A DNA stretch of 64,000 nucleotides from Pirellulales bacterium (GTDB taxonomy: Bacteria; Planctomycetota; Planctomycetia; Pirellulales; JALHPA01), in the NCBI GenBank assembly GCA_033762255.1, contig JANRLT010000006.1, positions 62,001 to 126,000 of the forward strand. The letters run 5' to 3'. Position 1 is the first letter of the stretch. Each line of letters starts with the position of its first letter. Below the pieces are notes generated by a model. That model worked only from the letters and a program-made list of their open reading frames with translations, ran no database searches and was not told the DNA's origin. The translations under genes and the position numbers were made by a program. This document shows, one piece after another, positions 38,979-59,051 of the stretch.

Positions 38979-40736
38979 TCACTCCCCGATTGTGACGGTC
39001 AATGGCGGGCTGATCACGTTGCTGGTGGTGCCGGAATCTCCCATCGCCATCACCCGCAGGGTTACCGGTCCCGTGCCTAAAATGGTCTTGGCCGTGGTGG
39101 GAATATTAAAAGTGGTCTGGCCGCCGACCGCCTGGGCCAGAATGCGGCCATTGGAATAGGCCAGCAGGTTACGGGCGCCGGGAGCGGTGACTTGGATGCT
39201 AATCGGCTTGCCCGCGGCGACGGTGGTGGCGGCCAGTTTGGCGGTCAATTTGCGGTTGGAATTGACAAACGGGGCATTGATGACTTTGCGTCCCTGGGTT
39301 TCGATCAGCGTGGCCGTCAGCCCGACGACCCGCAGTTCATGGTAACCGTCGGGATATTGCGCGGTGTTGAGTGTTAACTTTTCTCCCGCGCCACAGCGGC
39401 CGACGCGCGCTCCATCGACAAACAATTCAAAGCGATCCACAGCGGCCCCCCCGGCCCCCGCCACGGCGGTGGGAATTAATTCTATGGTCCCCTGCAACGG
39501 CTGACCGGTGAGCGCTGCTCCGGCCTCCCCCTCCGCGCCGGCCAGGGTTACATCCACCTGAGGGACTACTCCCCAGGGGGCGCACAGGGGGTCCCCCACA
39601 ATCAGTAGCTGGTAGGGCCCCTGAACCGATTGATAAAACGATTCCGCCAGGTTGCATCCCCGGGCGTAATGCACGTGCAGTTGCGGATGGGGAAACTTTT
39701 GCGCTATGGCGTTGGGTTCGTCCACGGTGCCGCTGGAACCGGACGCCCCCGCGCGGAGAAACTCGGTAAGTAGTGTCTGGCCGTGTCCCTTGTCAAAGCG
39801 GCCGCCAAAGCTGGTCAGGTTTTCGACAACCGCCCCGGGCAATATCGTCGATCCCGACGCCGCCACGTTGAACGTGGGAAACCCCAACACCCCGCCGGCG
39901 ATATCGGGTTTTTCGCGCGGGAACAGGTCCTTGATGATTTCCACTTTTTGGTTCATGGCTTGGAGTTCTTTGGCCACCACGCCAAAGTAGGGAGCCCGCG
40001 TTCTGGCCCGGACATCGGCATGGTCCGAAAAATAGTGCGTCCCGCCGGGCCGGGTGCCATCCGCGGCGGCGGACCGGGTTAGCACATTGACCGCCTCGGC
40101 CAGGGTGTTGCCGGGGGCGTCCCTGGTCGCCGTCACGCCCAGGGCCACGCACAGGACGTAGTGTTCGCCGCCGTTTTCCAGCAGTTCGCCTTTGTTTCCC
40201 CAGCCGTACCAGGATCGAAAGCCCAGCGATGGTTGCAGGTTGCCTCCCGTGAGTTGCTTGCGAAAATAAAGATTGCTGTTGAGGTCTTGAAATAGTTCCA
40301 TGCGGCGGGCCAGGACATCGTTGCGTAAAAAAGTCAGGGCGGTCAGCGACGCGCTAAAGCGTCCCTTGGCCGAGGCTCCGCCGGGGACATCGGCCCTGAA
40401 ATCCACCACCCAGGGGAATCCGCTGGAATAAGCGATGATGTCGATCTGCGCGGTCAGCCCGCGGGTTTGCATCATCTGCAGCGTGGGGAGGAGGATTTTC
40501 TTGCGAAAATCGAGGATGTCGATGGTCCCTTCGGTCTGGTCGATATCCAGATACAGCACGTTGCCGGGGGGAATTTGCCGCAGGGCGATATAATGGTTAG
40601 CCAGCGAAATGGAATCGGCGCTGCGATTATTGACGACTACAAAGACATTTTCCGGGCCGCCGCCGGCAAAAAGCGCGCCCGGCCAACCCAGCGCTAGTAA
40701 TCCAGCCATCAGGCAGCCCAGGAAAATTGCGCGCAT
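38979..40736 (-). CDS. TIGR03790 family secreted protein
   Basis: 585 residues from ATG 40736, which starts the signal peptide MRAIFLGCLMAGLLALGWPGALFAG; an upstream in-frame codon at 40775 is not needed. The family signature is visible at the mature N-terminus: ENVFVVVNNRSADSISLANHYIALRQIPPGNVLYLDI. Later come YSSGFPWVVDF and HVHYARGCNLAESFYQSVQGPYQLLIVGDPLCAPW, also characteristic. The C-terminus holds two beta-sandwich, Ig-like segments. TIGR03790 proteins are of unknown function, often in genomes with PEP-CTERM sorting. It lies just downstream of the exosortase/EPS block on the same strand. Confidence 0.75.
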   Translation of the reverse strand: MRAIFLGCLMAGLLALGWPGALFAGGGPENVFVVVNNRSADSISLANHYIALRQIPPGNVLYLDIDQTEGTIDILDFRKKILLPTLQMMQTRGLTAQIDIIAYSSGFPWVVDFRADVPGGASAKGRFSASLTALTFLRNDVLARRMELFQDLNSNLYFRKQLTGGNLQPSLGFRSWYGWGNKGELLENGGEHYVLCVALGVTATRDAPGNTLAEAVNVLTRSAAADGTRPGGTHYFSDHADVRARTRAPYFGVVAKELQAMNQKVEIIKDLFPREKPDIAGGVLGFPTFNVAASGSTILPGAVVENLTSFGGRFDKGHGQTLLTEFLRAGASGSSGTVDEPNAIAQKFPHPQLHVHYARGCNLAESFYQSVQGPYQLLIVGDPLCAPWGVVPQVDVTLAGAEGEAGAALTGQPLQGTIELIPTAVAGAGGAAVDRFELFVDGARVGRCGAGEKLTLNTAQYPDGYHELRVVGLTATLIETQGRKVINAPFVNSNRKLTAKLAATTVAAGKPISIQVTAPGARNLLAYSNGRILAQAVGGQTTFNIPTTAKTILGTGPVTLRVMAMGDSGTTSNVISPPLTVTIGE

Positions 40737-40954
40737 GGGGTATTCCTTTTGTTTTTTCAGATCGTCGCTAGGCAAAAAATATCCCGGCGATTAAAGCCAA
40801 AACTTGCCCGGAAAGAACGCCCTGGTGAATTGTTCGTCAACCAGGCACCGGGCAAAATCATAGCACGTGGGGGGCGTGGCGGCAAACTGGTCGGATGGCC
40901 CAGGCGGGATCAAGCTACCGTCGATCCGGGAACCCCGAACCTTTTTTGCAAAGG

Positions 40955-41023: not shown

Positions 41024-41812
41024 TTAGCCAACCTTATCTGAACTAGCCCCCTTTTCAGGATTGGTTTTATCCTTGTCCGAGGGTTGATTACCGTCTTCGC
41101 CGCTAGTTGCCGTCGGAGATTGCACAAATAACACTTTATTCAGCTCGGGAATAAAGGCCGCTAAAAAATCCTGCTGGGGGAGCTTTTCTTGGGCGGTTGG
41201 GACGGTCGTTTCGTCAAAAGCGCGGGTCAGGTAAATTTTGTACATGGCCCGGCTCGAGAAGTAATGGCTGCGGGGGTTGCGGGGACCTTCCCAGGTGCCA
41301 TCGGCCGAAAAGCCCCACCACACCTCGCGCGAGACCTTCACCCCATTTACATCTTGGTGGTAGGTCTGGTTGAGAAATTCGGCCACCAGCTTATTATCAT
41401 CATTATAGACTTTCATGGCAGTCGGCTGGTGGCTGGTGTCCGCCCCATGTCCGGGATAACATTGCTCTGGAGTGTGGATGCAGATTTCGTTGGTGGGACC
41501 GGTGGCCACAAAGATCGATAAATGTTCGTTGGTGTTCAGGTTTTTGTAGACGGCTTGCACCACGCTGGTGATCCCCGCCAAGCGAATCTCTTTTTCATTG
41601 ACGGGATCAAATTGCACAAATTCCCAATTGCCAAAACTTTTTGGTATGGCGTCTTTTGTCAACCGTTTGGCAAATTCCGCTTGCTGCTTGATGCTGACTT
41701 CATCCAGAAATCCCCAAAATTGCAATTCCCGCCATTGCAAGAATGTAAAACCGGCCAAAGCCAGCGCGATAAAGGCGGAAAAAGTAATTTGCGTGAGCAA
41801 GTGGGGTTTCAT
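41024..41812 (-). CDS. EpsI/DUF3485-like exosortase-associated protein
   Basis: 262 residues from ATG 41812. One N-terminal membrane anchor (ITFSAFIALALAGFTFLQW) precedes a soluble domain. The stretch ICIHTPEQCYPGHGADTS recalls the HxPExCYP motif of DUF3485/EpsI proteins, which are found fused to or next to exosortases. The rest (FVATG, WWGFSADGTWEGPRNPRSHYF) fits a periplasmic globular domain. Its role in EPS export or sorting is unknown. It is downstream of the Wzc-like and exosortase genes on the same strand, so it probably belongs to the same operon. Confidence 0.72.
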   Translation of the reverse strand: MKPHLLTQITFSAFIALALAGFTFLQWRELQFWGFLDEVSIKQQAEFAKRLTKDAIPKSFGNWEFVQFDPVNEKEIRLAGITSVVQAVYKNLNTNEHLSIFVATGPTNEICIHTPEQCYPGHGADTSHQPTAMKVYNDDNKLVAEFLNQTYHQDVNGVKVSREVWWGFSADGTWEGPRNPRSHYFSSRAMYKIYLTRAFDETTVPTAQEKLPQQDFLAAFIPELNKVLFVQSPTATSGEDGNQPSDKDKTNPEKGASSDKVG

Positions 41813-41979
41813 AAGTTGCCTGCTGGAAATGCGGTGGCGGGCGATCAAAATGCCCAATCCGACCAGTGAAAATCAGTCCAACGATGGGAAAATAGCCAGC
41901 GTCAGTCACCATGTGGCCGACGCTGGCGCGTGGGGTAAATCTAGCTGATGTGGATGGAACAATAAAACCTGGGGACGGA

Positions 41980-44313
41980 CTAACCGGCCAGCGCCCGATG
42001 GACTTTCTCGGGAGCCCGGCCCACGACGGTTCCCAGAATGGGGATGCCAACGGAATCCAACCGTCCGCGGGCTTCGTTAACCTTGGTGATTTGGCTGACA
42101 TCCCGCAATACGGACAGCACCGCCGTGTCGGCGTAACCACCCAGCAGCAGGGCGTCGGCAAAGCCCAGGACCGGTCCGCTGTCGATAATGATATAGTCAA
42201 AATCAGCCCGCAGCGTGCGGAAAATCGCCTCGGCGTGTTCCTTGGCCAGGGCCGCCAGGCTGTTATGGTCGCACACCCCCGCTTGCATGAGATACAGACC
42301 CTCGACATGGGCGGGATGGATCACGGCTTCCAGTTCGGCTTCGCTTCGCAGGACCTCGCTTAGACCGGCGGACTGGGGCAGGCCAAATAGGTGGTGAATG
42401 GTGGGCTTGCGCAGGTCACCGTCGACCAGCAGTGTGCGGCGTCCGGCCCGCGCGAGACTGGCGGCCAGGTGGGTGGCGACGGTGGTTTTGCCCTCTCCCT
42501 CGCTGGGGCTGCTGACCAGGACGATTCGCAGGGCCTCGCGGTTGCGATTTTGCAGAAGCATGGTCCGCACGCCATCGATCGACTCGGCCAACACACTAGA
42601 GGCGGTGTCGGAACCCAGGCGAGCCAAATTGGGCACGGTCCCCAGGACGCGCAGGCCGCAGGCGGGGCTGCCAATTTCTTGGACGGTGTTCACGCGGTGT
42701 TTGCTATTTTCCCACAGCACCACCGAGGCCACCCCCGCCAAGAGTGAAACCACACCGGCAAAAGAGGTCAGCATGATCTGGTAGGTCAGGTTGCCACGGG
42801 GGGGGACTTCCGGTTCGCTGTACAGTACCACGGTGGGGCTGATTTTTAGCCCTTCCAGTTTGCGCTCCGCTTCGTGTCGGTCGTTATTGAGGTTCCGCAG
42901 TTTGGTCTCTAGGTCGTGACGCTGGATCCGTTTGTTTTCCAGGTCGGCGGAAATATAGCTTTTCTTGGTGAATTCCGCTTGCTTGGTTTTCAGGGCCTCG
43001 GTCAAGCGGGCCATTTCGCCTTCGATCCGCTGTTGATTCTTTTTGAGAACGGGCAGGTATTCCTCTAAACGGTTGTTATTTTGGATTGTGTGTCTAATCA
43101 CGTTCTCTTTGTTTTCTTCCCAAAGCTGATCCATGCGGGCTTTGGTATTGACAATTTGGTTGTCCAAGCTGCGAATGGTGGGGGTGTTTTTATTGCGGGA
43201 GGTACTGACGGCGTCGTTGAGTTGCCGCTGCATGATACCCAGGGCGTCGGAAAGTTCCTTATATTCCGGGACGATTTCACGTAATTTTGCCTCGTAAATG
43301 CTTCTGGGAATTTCGTTGGTGTTTTTTTCGTTCTCCATGTATTCGTACAAGTCAATCCGTTCCAGGATGTCGTTTCGCTTGCGATTGAAATCCATTAGCA
43401 TCGCCTCGTCGCGGGCGATTTCGCTGCGGAGTAATTCGATTTCCCGCATCCGGCCCTCATTGGTCAAGGCCCCGGAGACTTCCTCCATGCTGCGAATGGC
43501 GTCGATCACCGTGCCGATCTGCGCCTGCTCGGCCTTGATCTGCGCGTCGAGGTTGGAAATGCTCAGATTGGCCGCTTGCTGTTCCTCATCAGTGTGATAC
43601 TTCAAATAAGATTCGGCCAAGGCCCGCACGATTTGAACCACTTGCGCGGGATCGGATCCGGTCATGCGAATCTCGATAAAATCGGACCCCTTGAGATTGA
43701 CCACGGTTAGCATCTTGGCCAAATAGCCATTGATATTTGACTGTTGGGCCAATAATGGCAGCGAGGTAATCGGGGTCGGGACGTGTTTGGGATGGGTGTA
43801 TACCTTTGCCAGGTTAAACACTTTTTCGTGTTTGAGCATCGCGATTTGGGTCTCGCGAAATGTTTGCCGCTGACCGTGGTCGATCACCCCTTGGCGCTTG
43901 CCGATGAAGTCATTCACGTCGTAATTACACTTGAGGAGGGCGCTTACCTCGTAGCTGTCGGGTAGCATAAACCAGACACCCAACGCGGTGGGTATGGCCA
44001 AGAGCAAGCCCACAAAACTCGCCAAGAGCCACTGTCGCCGAAAGGCGTGATAGAGCTTGGCAAAGGACATGGCCGTGGGAGAGGCGTCCTGCGCGTCGGC
44101 CGCCAAGCCGGGAAACCCATAAGGGTTGTAGGGAGCCAGATCGGTCGGTTCCGGGCGGGGGATGAGGGCGGTCCCCCCATAAATACCGTTGCCGTTGCCG
44201 TGCCCATTACCACCATAGGTGGAGCCGTTAGGGCTATTTGCCGAGTACAAGCCGGAATGCTTGCCAGCACCATCGTTGTGCAATTCGGGATTGTCGAGGG
44301 TTGAGCTAGCCAC
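41980..44313 (-). CDS. Wzc-like polysaccharide chain-length / tyrosine autokinase
   Basis: 777 residues. A Gly/Asn-rich N-terminal tail (NGSTYGGNGHGNGNGIYGG) is followed by TM1 at about 93-115, a Wzz-like domain, a long coiled coil (about 235-490), TM2 at about 513-537, and a C-terminal BY-kinase/ATPase domain. That domain has a Walker A SPSEGEGKTT (about 600), Walker A' LLVDGDLRKP and Walker B YIIIDSGP (about 705). It should polymerise and export exopolysaccharide with the Wza-like gene at 46421. The usual C-terminal Tyr cluster is missing: the tail ends EKVHRALAG. The leader carries an 8-bp hairpin. Confidence 0.88.
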   Translation of the reverse strand: MASSTLDNPELHNDGAGKHSGLYSANSPNGSTYGGNGHGNGNGIYGGTALIPRPEPTDLAPYNPYGFPGLAADAQDASPTAMSFAKLYHAFRRQWLLASFVGLLLAIPTALGVWFMLPDSYEVSALLKCNYDVNDFIGKRQGVIDHGQRQTFRETQIAMLKHEKVFNLAKVYTHPKHVPTPITSLPLLAQQSNINGYLAKMLTVVNLKGSDFIEIRMTGSDPAQVVQIVRALAESYLKYHTDEEQQAANLSISNLDAQIKAEQAQIGTVIDAIRSMEEVSGALTNEGRMREIELLRSEIARDEAMLMDFNRKRNDILERIDLYEYMENEKNTNEIPRSIYEAKLREIVPEYKELSDALGIMQRQLNDAVSTSRNKNTPTIRSLDNQIVNTKARMDQLWEENKENVIRHTIQNNNRLEEYLPVLKKNQQRIEGEMARLTEALKTKQAEFTKKSYISADLENKRIQRHDLETKLRNLNNDRHEAERKLEGLKISPTVVLYSEPEVPPRGNLTYQIMLTSFAGVVSLLAGVASVVLWENSKHRVNTVQEIGSPACGLRVLGTVPNLARLGSDTASSVLAESIDGVRTMLLQNRNREALRIVLVSSPSEGEGKTTVATHLAASLARAGRRTLLVDGDLRKPTIHHLFGLPQSAGLSEVLRSEAELEAVIHPAHVEGLYLMQAGVCDHNSLAALAKEHAEAIFRTLRADFDYIIIDSGPVLGFADALLLGGYADTAVLSVLRDVSQITKVNEARGRLDSVGIPILGTVVGRAPEKVHRALAG

Positions 44314-44697: not shown

Positions 44698-45966
44698 CTA
44701 CCGTTTAAACACCGGCGGTATCGCGGGTTTGTTGACAGGAACAGGGGCTTTGGGGGGGACCAGACCGGCGATGGGGACTCCCGCGCTGGCGGGATTGGGC
44801 ATGGCCCCCAGGGTACTGGCCGGAGTCATGGACCGCATGGGGATCGCGGTGGCATGTTCATCATCCAGGACCAAGTTTCGCAGAATTACATATTCGAGAT
44901 ACATCAATCCGAACATAATGGGAAAAACCACGAAACCGGCGGCATAATCATGAAAGAATTGCCCCGCGCCATCGGACATCATGGAGGCAAAACACTGCAG
45001 GATAATTCGCACGACATTGGCCGCCATGGCAATCACCGGCGCGCTGGCCACCATGACGATTTTTATCCAGAGGTCCACGTTGACCAAAAACGACCAGCAG
45101 AGCGTGATGGACAGCAGGGTCAACATGCCGCGAAAACCGGCGCAGGCCTCGGCCACGCTGAGTTTTTTCTCTTCGTTATCGCGGCGTATAAGTATGTCAT
45201 TTCCATTGCTGGTGACATCCACCCCCATGGTTTCCATGGCGTAAACGCTGGCGCGGGTGGAGAATTTTTGCAGATTGTCAAAGCTCAGGCGTTCCATTTT
45301 GCTGGAAAAGGGAATCGCCAACAGCAAGAGCAACATCCCCGGCCAAGTCCAGCGGAGCATGTTCAAGCCGCCAAACAGCATCACCAAGCCGGCAATAACC
45401 AAAACCGAGGAATACAGGGCAAATTGCTCGGAACGGTAAGCGTAGACGGTGACAAACCGCACAATTAAACAAGCTAAAATGATCCCCAGCCCGACAATCG
45501 CCTCCCAGGTTTCCGCGGGTTTGTATTCCCGCCGCCAGACCCACAACACCACGACGGCCATGATGGGAATCAAAAACCCGGACTCATACTCGAGCCGTGT
45601 CCAGGAACTGATGATGCGGTAAAGCTCGTAGGCATAAGAAAAAACCACCAGGGTCAGCATCATCAGCGACAGATTTAAGCTGGAGCGGACGGTGTTTCCC
45701 TGCTTGATGCTGGTCGTCAGGTCGGCGGCACAGCAGGCTAGGGCCAGCCCGCACAGCGCCGTGGAGACCCAAAAACAGATGCTATTGGAAAATTCCAGCT
45801 TTTGTCCCGACTCGCCACCAATCTCCGGCTTAAAAAAGCACACCACAAAATAAAAGAGAATGGTCAGGCTGAGCAAACCCATCACGATTTGCTGCAGGAT
45901 CGGCAACTCCCGGAATTTTTGCAGGGTCGCTTTGATTTCGCTGAGGGGATCAGACATAGGTGCCAT
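44698..45966 (-). CDS. exosortase
   Basis: 422 residues from ATG 45966; a GTG at 45993 and an ATG at 45957 are alternatives. About eight to ten hydrophobic segments are present. The catalytic triad of exosortases is readable: Cys275 in SVAEACAGFRGM, Arg320 in ANVVRIIL, and His339 in FFHDYAAGFVVFP. The C-terminal tail (about 50 residues) is Pro/Ala-rich and soluble. The enzyme should cleave PEP-CTERM tails in the inner membrane and transfer the protein to an envelope acceptor. A PEP-CTERM protein is encoded at 57684. It is the first gene of the minus-strand set xrt, wzc-like, epsI-like, with a good promoter upstream. Confidence 0.85.
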   Translation of the reverse strand: MAPMSDPLSEIKATLQKFRELPILQQIVMGLLSLTILFYFVVCFFKPEIGGESGQKLEFSNSICFWVSTALCGLALACCAADLTTSIKQGNTVRSSLNLSLMMLTLVVFSYAYELYRIISSWTRLEYESGFLIPIMAVVVLWVWRREYKPAETWEAIVGLGIILACLIVRFVTVYAYRSEQFALYSSVLVIAGLVMLFGGLNMLRWTWPGMLLLLLAIPFSSKMERLSFDNLQKFSTRASVYAMETMGVDVTSNGNDILIRRDNEEKKLSVAEACAGFRGMLTLLSITLCWSFLVNVDLWIKIVMVASAPVIAMAANVVRIILQCFASMMSDGAGQFFHDYAAGFVVFPIMFGLMYLEYVILRNLVLDDEHATAIPMRSMTPASTLGAMPNPASAGVPIAGLVPPKAPVPVNKPAIPPVFKR

Positions 45967-46161
45967 CGCGCGGGTGTGGGGAAAAGGGGACACCCTCCCC
46001 GTCTCTTGCCAGGGAAAATGCCGATTCTATCCGCCCCAGTTGACAGTGGGGGGAAATGTCCGGGTACGTCCCAACCCGGAGGTGCTCGGGGCAAAATTTT
46101 TCTTAAACTAGGTTCAAACCAAACTAATTTTGCCCGTGCTGCTTCGACTCACTCAAATTTG

Positions 46162-46190
46162 ACCATAAGCAGATTTTGACTAGCTGTCAA
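46162..46190 (-). promoter_or_regulatory. promoter candidate for the exosortase operon
   Basis: Minus-strand TTGACA (46185-46190) and TATGGT (46162-46167) with a 17-bp spacer, about 170-195 bp upstream of the exosortase start. The gap 45967-46420 also serves as the divergent leader of the Wza-like gene; no clear plus-strand promoter was seen. Confidence 0.5.
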
Positions 46191-46420
46191 GAAACCAGCA
46201 AAAGGCTAATAATCCCAATAAAAATGGTAGTCTGGGTAATTCGGGTAAAAATGACCGTTGGCGTAAATTTTTCTCAAGAATTCTCCGGTTTAATCCGCTT
46301 TTCCAGCAAAGTCCCAGGCGGGGTTGACCGATCTTAATGCCTGTATGAATTGCGCGGGCGGATTTTCCCCAGGGACTATTACGCCGGCTGTAACGAACGG
46401 TTCAGCAAGAACGTTCAATT

Positions 46421-47515
46421 ATGCACTTTTCTGAGATGTGGCGTTGCATGACCCCCTATCGTCTCCCCGGATCGCTGCGACTTTTCGCCTGGATCTGCCT
46501 GTTCGCGGGGATGCTGGCGGGCTGCCGTGCCAATACCCTTAATTCGCGCTACCAGCTCCCCGGCGATCAACCCTCCGCCGTGGCCCGGGAACAGGACTAT
46601 GTCCAATTGCCAGAGTACCGGCTGGAACCGCCGGATATTATTTTGATCGACGCCCTGCGAATCGTTCCGCGGGAGCCATTTAGGATCGAGGCGCTTGATA
46701 TCTTGTACGTGCAGGTGGAAGGCACCTTTGAGGACCAACCCATCAACGGGCAATTTAGTGTGTCGCCCAATGGGGCGATTGACCTGGGACCGGCTTATGG
46801 CCGGGTAAAAGTGGCGGGTCTGAGCATTGACGAAGCTATTCAAGAAGTCGAAAAGTTTCTCAGCCGCACCTTGCGCGAACCGCAAGTCAGCATCACACTT
46901 TTGCTGTCGGGGGGACAGGCCCAAATTGCCGGTCAGCGCCTGGTTGGTCCCGATGGCTATGTCAATCTGGGGACCTACGGGATGGTCTATGTCGCGGGAT
47001 CAACCATCTCCGAGGCCCAGGAGAAAATCACGGAGCATTTGCAGCAGTATCTGCAAAACCCCATCATTTCGGTGGATATCTTTGCGTACAACAGCAAGGT
47101 TTACTACGTTGTTTCCGAAGGGGCGGGCTCCGGGGACAATTTACAGCGATTTCCCATCACCGGAAAAGAGACCGTCCTGGATGCCATCGCCAATGTCGGC
47201 GGGTTGTCCCGGTTTTCGGATAAGCGAATTTGGATTGCCCGTCCCGCTCCGAGCGGACAGGAATGCGACCAGGTATTACCCGTCCAATGGAACGACATCG
47301 TCCGCGGCGGACAAACAGCCACCAATTACCAGTTAATGCCCGGCGACCGGGTATTTATTGCCGAAGAGCATATGTCGGCGGTCGATTCCCGCTTGACTCA
47401 ACTCTTTGACCCACTCGAACGGATTCTGGGCGTTACCATCCTAGGGTCCAATGTCGTCGCCACGGGACAACGCTTTCCAGGAGGGTTGCAAGGACAAAAC
47501 AACCCGGGTTTCTAG
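46421..47515 (+). CDS. Wza-like polysaccharide export lipoprotein
   Basis: 364 residues. A lipobox LFAGMLAGC (Cys35) makes it a lipoprotein; the start could instead be ATG 46436 or 46448. The Poly_export domain follows (YRLEPPDIILIDAL, then IEALDILYVQVEG, FSVSPNGAIDLGPAYGRVKVAGLSIDEA), with two SLBB-like segments, the second beginning AGQRLVGPDGYVNLGTYGMVYVAGSTISEAQ. The final part (RFPITGKETVLDAIANVGGL, RGGQTATNYQLMPGDRVFIAEE) closes the standard order. It should form the outer-membrane exit for exopolysaccharide and work with the Wzc-like protein encoded divergently. Its stop codon touches the family A element. Confidence 0.88.
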   Translation: MHFSEMWRCMTPYRLPGSLRLFAWICLFAGMLAGCRANTLNSRYQLPGDQPSAVAREQDYVQLPEYRLEPPDIILIDALRIVPREPFRIEALDILYVQVEGTFEDQPINGQFSVSPNGAIDLGPAYGRVKVAGLSIDEAIQEVEKFLSRTLREPQVSITLLLSGGQAQIAGQRLVGPDGYVNLGTYGMVYVAGSTISEAQEKITEHLQQYLQNPIISVDIFAYNSKVYYVVSEGAGSGDNLQRFPITGKETVLDAIANVGGLSRFSDKRIWIARPAPSGQECDQVLPVQWNDIVRGGQTATNYQLMPGDRVFIAEEHMSAVDSRLTQLFDPLERILGVTILGSNVVATGQRFPGGLQGQNNPGF

Positions 47516-54535: not shown

Positions 54536-54612
54536 TACTGAATGCCTTCACAAATTTCTAACCGCGCTAAGTTTAGCTAGAAAGATTATTATACATACTG
54601 TACACCTGTATG

Positions 54613-56073
54613 TCAACGGGTTTTTTGGGCCACGGAGGGTTGTTTTTCTTCCGTCAGGGATTCCTCCGCAAATTTGCTGAGAAAATAGATGCTGCTGTCG
54701 TGCCCATGAAAGCCCACGACGCGCTCGTCGACATTGGTGACTTGCTTGATGATCCGCCCGGCGCGCAGGTCAAATTCAATCGTCCCCCGGCCCAGGTTTT
54801 GGATCACCTGGCTGCGGATTTCGGGATTGTCGATCGGCGGCAGCACGGTTTCATACGAAATGCTGGCAATGCCCCCTTCGACCTTGTCCAGTTGATAGCG
54901 GTGGCGGGCCTGATAGACGCGCGGTTGATCCGCCACCGTCACGGTGATCTCAATCGGCGTCGACCAGGGCTGGCCCAGGTGGACCGGCTGGGCGGGAAGG
55001 GGGACAAGGACCTGCTGATGGGCCTGATAGGTGCCGCTGTCGTGGATTTTGGCCGATTGTTCGGAGGTGGACTCGCGCTTGAGGACCTTGCCTGTCCGGT
55101 CGATGGTTAACCGGGAAAGGGGCGTGCCGATCATGGCGGCGGTGGATTCGTATCCCGGAGGAGGGGTTTTGTCGGTGCGGCTGTTGTAGCGGACTTCCTC
55201 GCGGCCGGACATTTTTTGCCGCATGTCGATGGCGTCCCACATCGTTTCAAAGGTTACGTTCCCCGCTTCGTCCACGGCGATCACTTTCCAACGCTTGTCA
55301 GAGACAGTGGCGATTTCCGCGACCTGCGATGTCCCGGAGATGGTCGTCTCGACCCGCGTTTGCTGGGTCAGGCGGGTGCGCACCACCTCGCCGGCGGTAA
55401 ATTTGTATTGCAGCGTGTATTTTTCCACTTTGGCGGGTTGGCCAGCCGCGGCGGAAACGCTGCCTGCCGCAGTGGAAGAGTTTGTCGTCGATTGCGTGAC
55501 AGGAGTAGCGGCCCCCGCCTTGGCGGCGCTGGTGGTACTCGGCGTGGTGGGCTGCGCGGTGCTGGTTGGAGCGGCGGGCGCTGGTTTGGTGGTCGCGGCC
55601 GTGGCGGGCTGCGGGGAAGGAGCGGGCTTTGCCGCTGTGGGGCTGTTCTTGCCCGTGGCCGCGCTGCCTGCTTTTGCGTTGGTTGCTTTGGCGTTGCTAG
55701 GCTGCGCGCCGCGAGGCTGTGCGCTTTTTGGCTGGTTGTTATTTGTTTGGGCGCTCCCCGCCCGTGTGGTTGATTTGGCGGGGGGCTTGATGACGGGGGC
55801 GGGCTTGGCTGGTGCGGCCTTGGCGGTTGCGGGGGCCTTAGCGGTTGCTTGGCTTTTGGTATTTGAGGGGGCCACAGTCGTCGCGGCCCGGGGGGGCGTG
55901 GCGGACTGCTGCGCGATAGGAGCTTTTAATACCGAAGGGGGAGTGGTGGCCGCGGGTTCGGCGCTTTGAACACTTGGCGGCAGCCAACAATTCGTCCCGC
56001 AGATCCCCACGACCGCGGCCAGTGTCAGGCTCTTGCCATAACCAGCCCAAGAGCTGTTTGTCAACTTTTGCAT
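54613..56073 (-). CDS. secreted protein with Ala/Pro/Thr-rich linker and beta domain
   Basis: 486 residues. A signal peptide (SLTLAAVVGICGTNCWLPPSVQSAEP) is followed by about 180 residues of low-complexity Ala/Pro/Thr/Lys-rich linker. A globular C-terminal domain (about 220-486) begins KVEKYTLQYKFTAGEVVRTRLTQQTRVETTISGT. That domain is beta-rich and reminiscent of the DUF6263-like group of periplasmic proteins, although I am not certain. It is monocistronic, ending next to the repeat cluster. A domain anchored to the envelope by a flexible spacer is the most that can be said. Confidence 0.65.
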   Translation of the reverse strand: MQKLTNSSWAGYGKSLTLAAVVGICGTNCWLPPSVQSAEPAATTPPSVLKAPIAQQSATPPRAATTVAPSNTKSQATAKAPATAKAAPAKPAPVIKPPAKSTTRAGSAQTNNNQPKSAQPRGAQPSNAKATNAKAGSAATGKNSPTAAKPAPSPQPATAATTKPAPAAPTSTAQPTTPSTTSAAKAGAATPVTQSTTNSSTAAGSVSAAAGQPAKVEKYTLQYKFTAGEVVRTRLTQQTRVETTISGTSQVAEIATVSDKRWKVIAVDEAGNVTFETMWDAIDMRQKMSGREEVRYNSRTDKTPPPGYESTAAMIGTPLSRLTIDRTGKVLKRESTSEQSAKIHDSGTYQAHQQVLVPLPAQPVHLGQPWSTPIEITVTVADQPRVYQARHRYQLDKVEGGIASISYETVLPPIDNPEIRSQVIQNLGRGTIEFDLRAGRIIKQVTNVDERVVGFHGHDSSIYFLSKFAEESLTEEKQPSVAQKTR

Positions 56074-57683: not shown

Positions 57684-59051
57684 GTGAGCATTACATCATG
57701 CCGTTTCTGTTTGCGCAGCCCAAATTTTTTGCGCGCTGCCCTGTGGAGTGCGTTTGTTGGTCTGACCTGGATCTGCAACTCCGCCGTTGTTCGAGCGGAT
57801 TGGGAGCAATTTCAGGGGAACGCCGCACACACTGGTTACGTCGATAGTTATATCTATGCCCCCGGCTTGACGCAGCAATGGTTCTCCCCAGCCCCGTCCT
57901 ATTCGGCCGGACCCGGCGATCGCAGCGTGGCCATCGTCGCTGGGGACGTTTACGCCACGATGCTGCAAGGTTACGGACCCGTTGGTCCATACTTGGTCAA
58001 ACGCCTGGACGGATTGACGGGCGCGACGGAGTGGCAGGCCTCAATTCCCGGCAGTTCGCATTCGGGCGTCTCGGCCCCCTCAGTGGCCGGTGATACTGTC
58101 TACGTGCATCATTTTGGGCATTCCGGCAGCAGCGGATCAGCTTTTCCCACGGACTACCCAGCGCTTGTGGGGCTGGATAGAGCTAGTGGCGTCCAGCAAT
58201 TTTGGACGACGCATTCCGGTCAATGGTCGAGCGGCAGCCGGCCAACGATCGAGGGGACCGGGGTCTTCGCCGCGGGGGGCTATTTCGGCGGGTTGGACGC
58301 CTATGGTTTGAACGGCTCCCACGTTTGGTTTCATGGGGTGAACCAGCAATATGGCTGGATTCCAGCCGCCGACCAAAACAATGTCTACGTGTACATGGGG
58401 GCCGCGAGCGCCAGCCCCGGGCCCAGCGTCGGGTCGCTCTTTATTGTGAATCGTACCACGGGAGTACGCGACGCAACCGTGCCGCACCCACAATCAAACG
58501 GCACCTTTTATGGAGAAGAGCAAAGCGTAATCCTGGGCGGCCAGGGGGATGCGCTCGCGCTGACGTACAATAATCATCCAGCTTTTGCCAATAGCAAGAC
58601 CCTAGTGAGTTTTGATATCGTCAGCCGCACGATCAACTGGCAAATCACAGGCAATTTTGGTGGCAACGCCGCCGTTTCCGACGGTCAGATCGCCGTGCCC
58701 GACGGCAACGCGCTGCGGATTGTGGATCAATCGACCGGCGGAACCTTGTGGACCTGGACCGCGCCGGGGGCGGTGTGGGGCAATGTCGTGCTAAGCAATC
58801 AGTACGCATTTGTAAATGCCGGCGGCAGCGTGCATGCGATTGACCTGCTGACGCGGACGTCCGTTTGGAACTCGTCCGGTGTAACGGGCAGTATCGCGCT
58901 CGACGATAACCTGCTAGTCATCAGCAATCCGAGCGGAGTGCGTGCCTACACGGCGATCCCCGAACCTGCCTCGTTCGTTGCGACTGTTGTAGCGGGTGCC
59001 GCATGGATGCTCATGCGGCGGCGCAAGGCGCGGATTACCGGCCAAACTTAA
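57684..59051 (+). CDS. PEP-CTERM PQQ-like beta-propeller protein
   Basis: 455 residues; the GTG start has GGAGG upstream (GGGAGGACCGCTC). A signal peptide (ALWSAFVGLTWICNSAVVRA) is followed by DWEQFQGNAAHTGYVD, the beta-propeller opening, then repeated blades (VKRLDGLTGATEW, VGLDRASGVQQFW, IVNRTTGVRDA, VSFDIVSRTINW, LRIVDQSTGGTLW). The C-terminus is IPEPASFVATVVAGAAWMLM followed by RRRKAR: PEP, one membrane helix, basic tail. It is thus a likely substrate of the exosortase at 44698 and would be anchored in, or released to, the outer envelope. It sits between two D repeats. Confidence 0.9.
   Translation: MSITSCRFCLRSPNFLRAALWSAFVGLTWICNSAVVRADWEQFQGNAAHTGYVDSYIYAPGLTQQWFSPAPSYSAGPGDRSVAIVAGDVYATMLQGYGPVGPYLVKRLDGLTGATEWQASIPGSSHSGVSAPSVAGDTVYVHHFGHSGSSGSAFPTDYPALVGLDRASGVQQFWTTHSGQWSSGSRPTIEGTGVFAAGGYFGGLDAYGLNGSHVWFHGVNQQYGWIPAADQNNVYVYMGAASASPGPSVGSLFIVNRTTGVRDATVPHPQSNGTFYGEEQSVILGGQGDALALTYNNHPAFANSKTLVSFDIVSRTINWQITGNFGGNAAVSDGQIAVPDGNALRIVDQSTGGTLWTWTAPGAVWGNVVLSNQYAFVNAGGSVHAIDLLTRTSVWNSSGVTGSIALDDNLLVISNPSGVRAYTAIPEPASFVATVVAGAAWMLMRRRKARITGQT

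Follow-up and report, generated by a model that had tools for sequence, protein, structure and literature searches.

Exosortase systems of the XrtA/EpsH type (TIGR03109, TIGR02602 and TIGR02595) are the closest described counterparts of the locus analyzed here, and share with it the exosortase fold family, PEP-CTERM tails that score over the cut-off, and neighboring genes related to EpsI, Wzc and Wza. A Trp-bearing PEP-type tail paired with one exosortase subtype is known from the PEPxxWA-CTERM proteins, in which the Trp follows PEPxx and the partner enzyme is XrtV. Other relevant families are the VPLPA-CTERM exosortase XrtD (TIGR04152) and exosortase U (NF033780). In Nostoc, traits related to polymer are disturbed when an exosortase is lost (PMC12188702), and floc formation by Aquincola requires a prsT gene together with a PEP-CTERM gene (PMC9850573).

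The window, a stretch of 64,000 nucleotides from a Pirellulales bacterium, carries an exosortase gene (xrt, 44698..45993, minus strand, GTG start) at the locus where the original prediction had placed it. Its 431-residue product matches PF09721 at 133.9 bits (cut-off 25.7) and TIGR04178 at 45.7 bits (cut-off 23). Cys284, Asn326, Arg329 and His348 are present and are invariant or nearly so across 45 aligned exosortases; the Cys, Arg and His, which we take to be the catalytic residues, all align in the window protein. A PF09721 search of its own genome (a 72-contig assembly of 96.6% completeness) returned this single match, the sole exosortase found. With the 8TM_EpsH model TIGR02602 the protein reaches 103.2 bits, just below the cut-off of 105.55, and so falls outside that subfamily as defined; among relatives of the compact type described below that were scanned singly, four scored 108.9 to 147.2 bits and one 103.3 bits. 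No solved structure matched the exosortase profile at E <= 0.01.

Classification of the enzyme, which had been proposed as a check, yielded a type and no named subtype. The window exosortase lies far below every listed cut-off of the named NCBIfam subtypes (XrtA, B, C, D, J, T, V, W, X and others). Against XrtA it scores 83.7 with a cut-off of 208, and in contrast to XrtA/EpsH systems its locus contains neither a glycosyltransferase nor a PrsT gene and encodes a Wzc-like protein without a Tyr tail. XrtD provides the best-scoring NCBIfam exosortase model (103.7 bits), as it does for members of both exosortase clades distinguished below, but its cut-off is 400 bits and the 486-position profile is matched only over positions 3-251. 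Exosortase U occurs in the same order (L084, 99.5 bits, cut-off 40), but gives no match to the window protein at E <= 0.01, and XrtU-like rows form a far branch of the tree. By locus and by model the window exosortase belongs to what we call the compact type, scoring 331.6 with a compact model that includes it as a member versus 158.0 with a model of the EPS clade. The best reading of these sequences is that it would represent an unnamed subtype of compact type, whose EPS-linked sister goes with a variant signal.

The surrounding genes are arranged as originally described, with wzc-like and epsI-like genes on the minus strand together with xrt and a wza-like gene opposite, all being open frames with family matches. 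The Wzc-like membrane ATPase (41980..44313, minus strand) contains a BY-kinase-like domain (TIGR01007, 124.2 bits, cut-off 108.05) with the Walker A and A' motifs GEGKTT and LLVDGDLR, and its solved relatives by sequence are CapAB and Wzc. Its Walker B motif reads DSGP and not DxPP, and its last 35 residues hold 0 Tyr, in agreement with the lack of a Tyr-rich tail described at the outset; because the C-terminal Tyr cluster of Wzc-type autokinases is absent, we call the protein only Wzc-like. The EpsI-like (DUF3485) protein (41024..41857, minus strand) is a weak match, at 25.9 bits just under the PF11984 cut-off of 26.1, and epsI homologues lie directly 3' of wzc in 15 other compact loci. The next gene on the same strand (38979..40775) encodes a TIGR03790 family protein (84.1 bits, cut-off 67) that is single copy in the genome and is also found near the exosortase in two other loci (L079 and L097). 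To our knowledge this family has been described only together with PEP-CTERM systems. Divergent from xrt, on the plus strand, is the gene for a Wza-like lipoprotein with Poly_export domains (46421..47515; PF02563, 90.7 bits), in which the sequence LAGC looks lipobox-like by eye; homologues of this gene occur in 9 other compact loci. Further neighbors in the window are housekeeping genes, among them PEP carboxylase, phosphofructokinase, and infC- and tadA-like genes, the latter two named by eye.

The TTGACA-N17-TATGGT sequence that had been called a clean promoter is present, exact in every letter, upstream of xrt (46162..46190, minus strand), at a distance of 169 bases from its GTG start codon. 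In its strict form the pattern, chosen after the fact, has 2 matches in the window with 0.03 expected, and a general scan of the window finds 8 promoter-like sites versus 5.0 +/- 2.0 in shuffles, so the sequence stands only as a candidate promoter. The second strict match, TTGACA-N17-TATAAT, is located at 54588-54616 (minus strand), with the phosphofructokinase gene on one side and, on the other, the region where a convergent frame starts.

A PQQ-type beta-propeller encoded on the plus strand at 57684..59051 (PQQ_2, 37.9 bits) carries the PEP-CTERM tail that had been assigned to it. This tail, IPEPASFVATVVAGAAWMLMRRRKARITGQT (G000:C6:120956-121027), scores 17.5 bits with TIGR02595 (cut-off 16), is C-terminal and has a basic end, and the protein is a predicted substrate. 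The genome-wide listing of such tails that had been called for gave 61 TIGR02595 matches at E <= 10, of which 45, the propeller among them, exceed the cut-off and 38 have E <= 0.1. Among 14 control genomes, 12 contained a match at E <= 10, two contained one over the cut-off and none reached E <= 0.1. All 30 of the tails that were read are located at the very end of their frame, at most 34 residues from the motif, and 0/30 have Trp at tail position 10. The locus looks like a complete exosortase module of compact form, with many predicted substrates dispersed over the genome. One exosortase, 45 tails and the terminal position of every tail read support the proposal of an envelope-sorting system with the propeller as one substrate, and by analogy the window exosortase would cut about 45 proteins. 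We also note that four PEP-CTERM proteins of this genome are encoded in tandem (L128:11033-17915, G000:C33).

We compared the locus with 39 relatives besides the window's own listing and with 107 genomes of the order; since the 39 are also within the 107, only 68 genomes are new. An exosortase was found in 36 of the 39 relatives. In a tree of 54 exosortase rows (L056 was left out as a duplicate of L086), 22 rows form a clade with SH-aLRT 100, the EPS clade, whose loci, where sufficient DNA is available, contain xrt, wzc, a gene for a PrsT-like TPR protein of ~1,400-1,500 residues, epsI and a sugar transferase gene. Compact loci, including that of the window, contain xrt, wzc and epsI. Between wzc and epsI lie no more than 204 bases in 16 of 26 compact-type rows, versus 4.4 to 4.8 kb in 13 of 22 rows of the EPS clade; the others are truncated at the end of a contig or locus, are fused, or have no epsI found there. 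The gap in EPS loci is occupied by the PrsT-like TPR protein. A wza-like gene is nearby in 10/26 compact rows versus 1/22 EPS-clade rows. The window exosortase falls into a compact group of 22 rows (SH-aLRT 84), the compact rows together forming no single firmly supported clade.

Many members of the order carry an EPS-type exosortase in addition to the compact type. EPS type was called with an alignment model on which known EPS-clade rows score at least 321.9 and compact rows at most 291.3; G057 (286 bits, in the compact range) was counted as EPS type owing to its 1755-residue fused frame, and G072 (298 bits, near the boundary) as compact. Judged mostly by E-values and not by scores against cut-offs, no scanned member of either type was shown to exceed a named NCBIfam subtype cut-off apart from the outlier L084 (XrtU), and these two exosortase groups without a subtype assignment could be named and modeled. 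The compact gene order is also found in named Pirellulales, Thermoguttaceae, Gemmataceae and Singulisphaera records (80 loci), which were searched with a model of six closer compact rows because the alignment of all 26 was too variable for scanning. An EPS-type exosortase lies within a single frame of ~1,740 residues in L065:5080-10305, L069:5026-10248 and L102:9445-14733, as well as in G098:C91 and G057:C2. The rest of the L065 frame matches the PrsT-like TPR protein, and the fused exosortase of L069 adjoins eight tailed proteins (VPEMTTILSW is an example of such a tail).

The Wzc-like proteins encoded at the two locus types differ as well. Walker A and A' are kept, whereas the Walker B form DxPP is found in 0/22 compact-type versus 15/17 EPS-type proteins, and the mean number of Tyr in the last 35 residues is 1.1 in the compact versus 3.8 in the EPS type (p 2e-5). 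Some Wzc proteins of compact gene order in the named records, for example in Thermoguttaceae, retain 6 or 7 Tyr, and the PP form occurs in a few, so the change is a tendency shared by much of the compact group without defining it; absence of the Tyr-rich tail is accordingly common, not universal, in the compact type. We put at roughly 0.7 the probability that the window locus is a compact general PEP-CTERM sorting module, distinct in type from the EPS-cluster exosortase and the Trp-tail variant that goes with it.

A rather unlikely alternative is that the locus is a classical EPS-coupled, XrtA-like one: Wzc and Wza would export a polysaccharide, the exosortase would attach proteins to this polymer or release them into it, and the synthesis genes would simply have moved away. 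Homologues of all export parts are present at the locus, and this part of the original prediction of a coupling to exopolysaccharide stands. The locus has no polysaccharide synthesis gene, a PF02397 search gave no match on its contig C6, and its gene order differs from that of an EPS cluster. Both PF02397 initiating sugar transferases of the genome are on contig C28, which leaves synthesis genes and export homologues unlinked in this assembly of 72 contigs and 96.6% completeness. No other Wzc-like protein of this genome exceeds the TIGR01007 cut-off. That of the window could therefore still serve a polymer made elsewhere, and with the two transferases on C28 a polymer pathway has no other obvious Wzc; the Nostoc traits mentioned above are also consistent with such a link. 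Against it, order-mates possess a separate EPS-type locus that encodes a sugar transferase and a Tyr-tailed Wzc of its own, and the window protein has neither the Tyr tail nor DxPP. Coupling to exopolysaccharide is the weakest part of the earlier interpretation. Two other Wza-like genes are located elsewhere in the genome, and one of them, on C65 (L127:9209-10390, E 3e-118 to the window's), is divergent from a PrsT-like TPR gene (L127:11126-15541), with no exosortase beside this pair.

The preferred reading of a separate sorting module also draws on the tails themselves. Next to EPS-type loci the tails have the form VPEx(S/T)(S/T)xxxW, with a Trp placed ten residues from where the tail starts, as in VPEPSSLLVWSLL; this position differs from that in PEPxxWA-CTERM tails. 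We built a tail model (A3) from 11 of these W tails from seven genomes (G004, G007, G014, G020, G024, G026 and G036; one tail there was left out), after the tails of those genomes had been seen, and ran it on the relatives and then on the 107 genomes with a threshold of E <= 1e-5. W tails were found in 23/29 genomes with an EPS-type exosortase versus 6/78 without, and in 16/22 versus 6/78 when the seven A3 genomes were excluded. In the 68 genomes outside model building the counts were 10/12 versus 3/56 (Fisher p 6e-8), the former being 10/11 when G057 is excluded. The groups separate at each of the thresholds 1e-6, 1e-5 and 1e-4, and a genus-level table (19, 5, 3, 38) gives p 4e-9. When tails from the new genomes were read, 13/14 had the Trp at the same place, the exception (L176) belonging to a genome without a detected exosortase. 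Several W-tail matches, such as ones in G006 and G010, are distant from the exosortase.

Exosortases could alternatively be interchangeable, with the Trp marking EPS-associated cargo or a lineage habit and not the choice of enzyme. We regard this as doubtful, as co-occurrence within families is strong: the observed overlap of W tails and EPS type was reached in 0/20000 within-family label shuffles, and in families f7 and f18 W tails are present in 5/6 and 4/4 genomes with the EPS type versus 0/7 and 0/9 without. In its favor, W and plain tails have the same layout of motif, helix and Arg cluster, no alignment column separates compact from EPS exosortases at thresholds of 70% (compact) and 80% (EPS), and six genomes (G011, G022, G031, G051, G054 and G064, two of them <85% complete) have strong W tails with no detected EPS-type exosortase. 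Six other genomes have an EPS-type exosortase and no strong W tail. The window's own genome, in which no EPS-type exosortase was found, encodes a single W-tail protein, VPEPATLVIWGLIGG (G000:C3:27053-27124; L150, L177:18827-19708; E 1.6e-4). A hidden EPS-type locus at this site was considered and rejected: the neighboring frames, read by eye, resemble a cytochrome oxidase, a P-type ATPase, regulators and one repeat protein, and no exosortase or sugar transferase was recognized among them.

The number of predicted substrates was likewise compared between types. The median count of PEP-CTERM (TIGR02595) matches is 42.5 where a compact-type exosortase is present (70 genomes) versus 3 where it is absent (37 genomes; p 1.5e-7), the highest per-genome counts being at least about 71. 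The 9 EPS-only genomes (0 to at least 71) and the 50 compact-only genomes do not differ significantly (p 0.13), so it is mostly genomes such as that of the window, which have nothing else, that underlie the view of compact enzymes as the main ones for PEP-CTERM proteins.

On the reading of a compact general sorting module, the eight-helix-type exosortase with its Cys, Arg and His would team with the Wzc-like ATPase, the EpsI-like protein and the divergent Wza-like lipoprotein. After Sec export, the exosortase most likely would cut the C-terminal PEP-CTERM tail off ~45 secreted proteins, propeller included, and the cut proteins would be released to the envelope or surface. Since DxPP is lost and the Tyr cluster usually lost, the compact Wzc-like protein is probably an ATP-driven envelope partner and not a phosphorylation-cycled chain-length regulator.

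A more speculative extension, which we think quite unlikely as it stands, is that many members of the order run two parallel sorting lines. In one, a compact xrt, a Wzc-like ATPase without kinase tail and its own Wza-like pore would take plain PEP-CTERM proteins and move the freed proteins across the outer membrane; in the other, the EPS type, PrsT and a true Wzc would take W-tailed proteins bound for polymer. The window genome would keep the first line only. With two exosortase lines, tails differing by one placed Trp, and single- and double-line genomes all in one order, both exosortase substrate choice and the transport of sugar versus protein by the adjoining export homologues become testable.

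That the window exosortase is decaying and non-functional, as its end branch, the longest in the exosortase tree (2.34), and changes at 11 positions that all 44 other sequences of the alignment conserve (F225L, P230S and P320V among them) might suggest, is very improbable with Cys284, Asn326, Arg329 and His348 intact, the frame open, and 45 PEP-CTERM tails persisting with no other exosortase found. The protein is too divergent for a single-sequence search to succeed, so that a contig search with it alone gave 68 pattern matches and no relative.

An order-mate (G028) has PEP-CTERM tails in an unusual arrangement. On 16 of its contigs (L178, L180 and L268-L281), 16 open frames contain 2 to 9 tails each, with 53 internal junctions at which the Arg cluster of one tail runs into a signal-peptide-like stretch, many of these ending in A-x-A, with no stop between. 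In 36/53 junctions the 14 residues that follow the matched basic cluster contain no Met. To judge from these frames, they look like proteins that would be cut apart by exosortase and signal peptidase. The literature searched, mostly outside subscription journals, yielded no paper combining PEP-CTERM with polyprotein, nor, among the exosortase and PEP-CTERM papers covered, a description of the W tail, of tandem frames or of two types of locus. On five contigs of four other genomes (L282-L286), by comparison, 7/7 tails end their frame.
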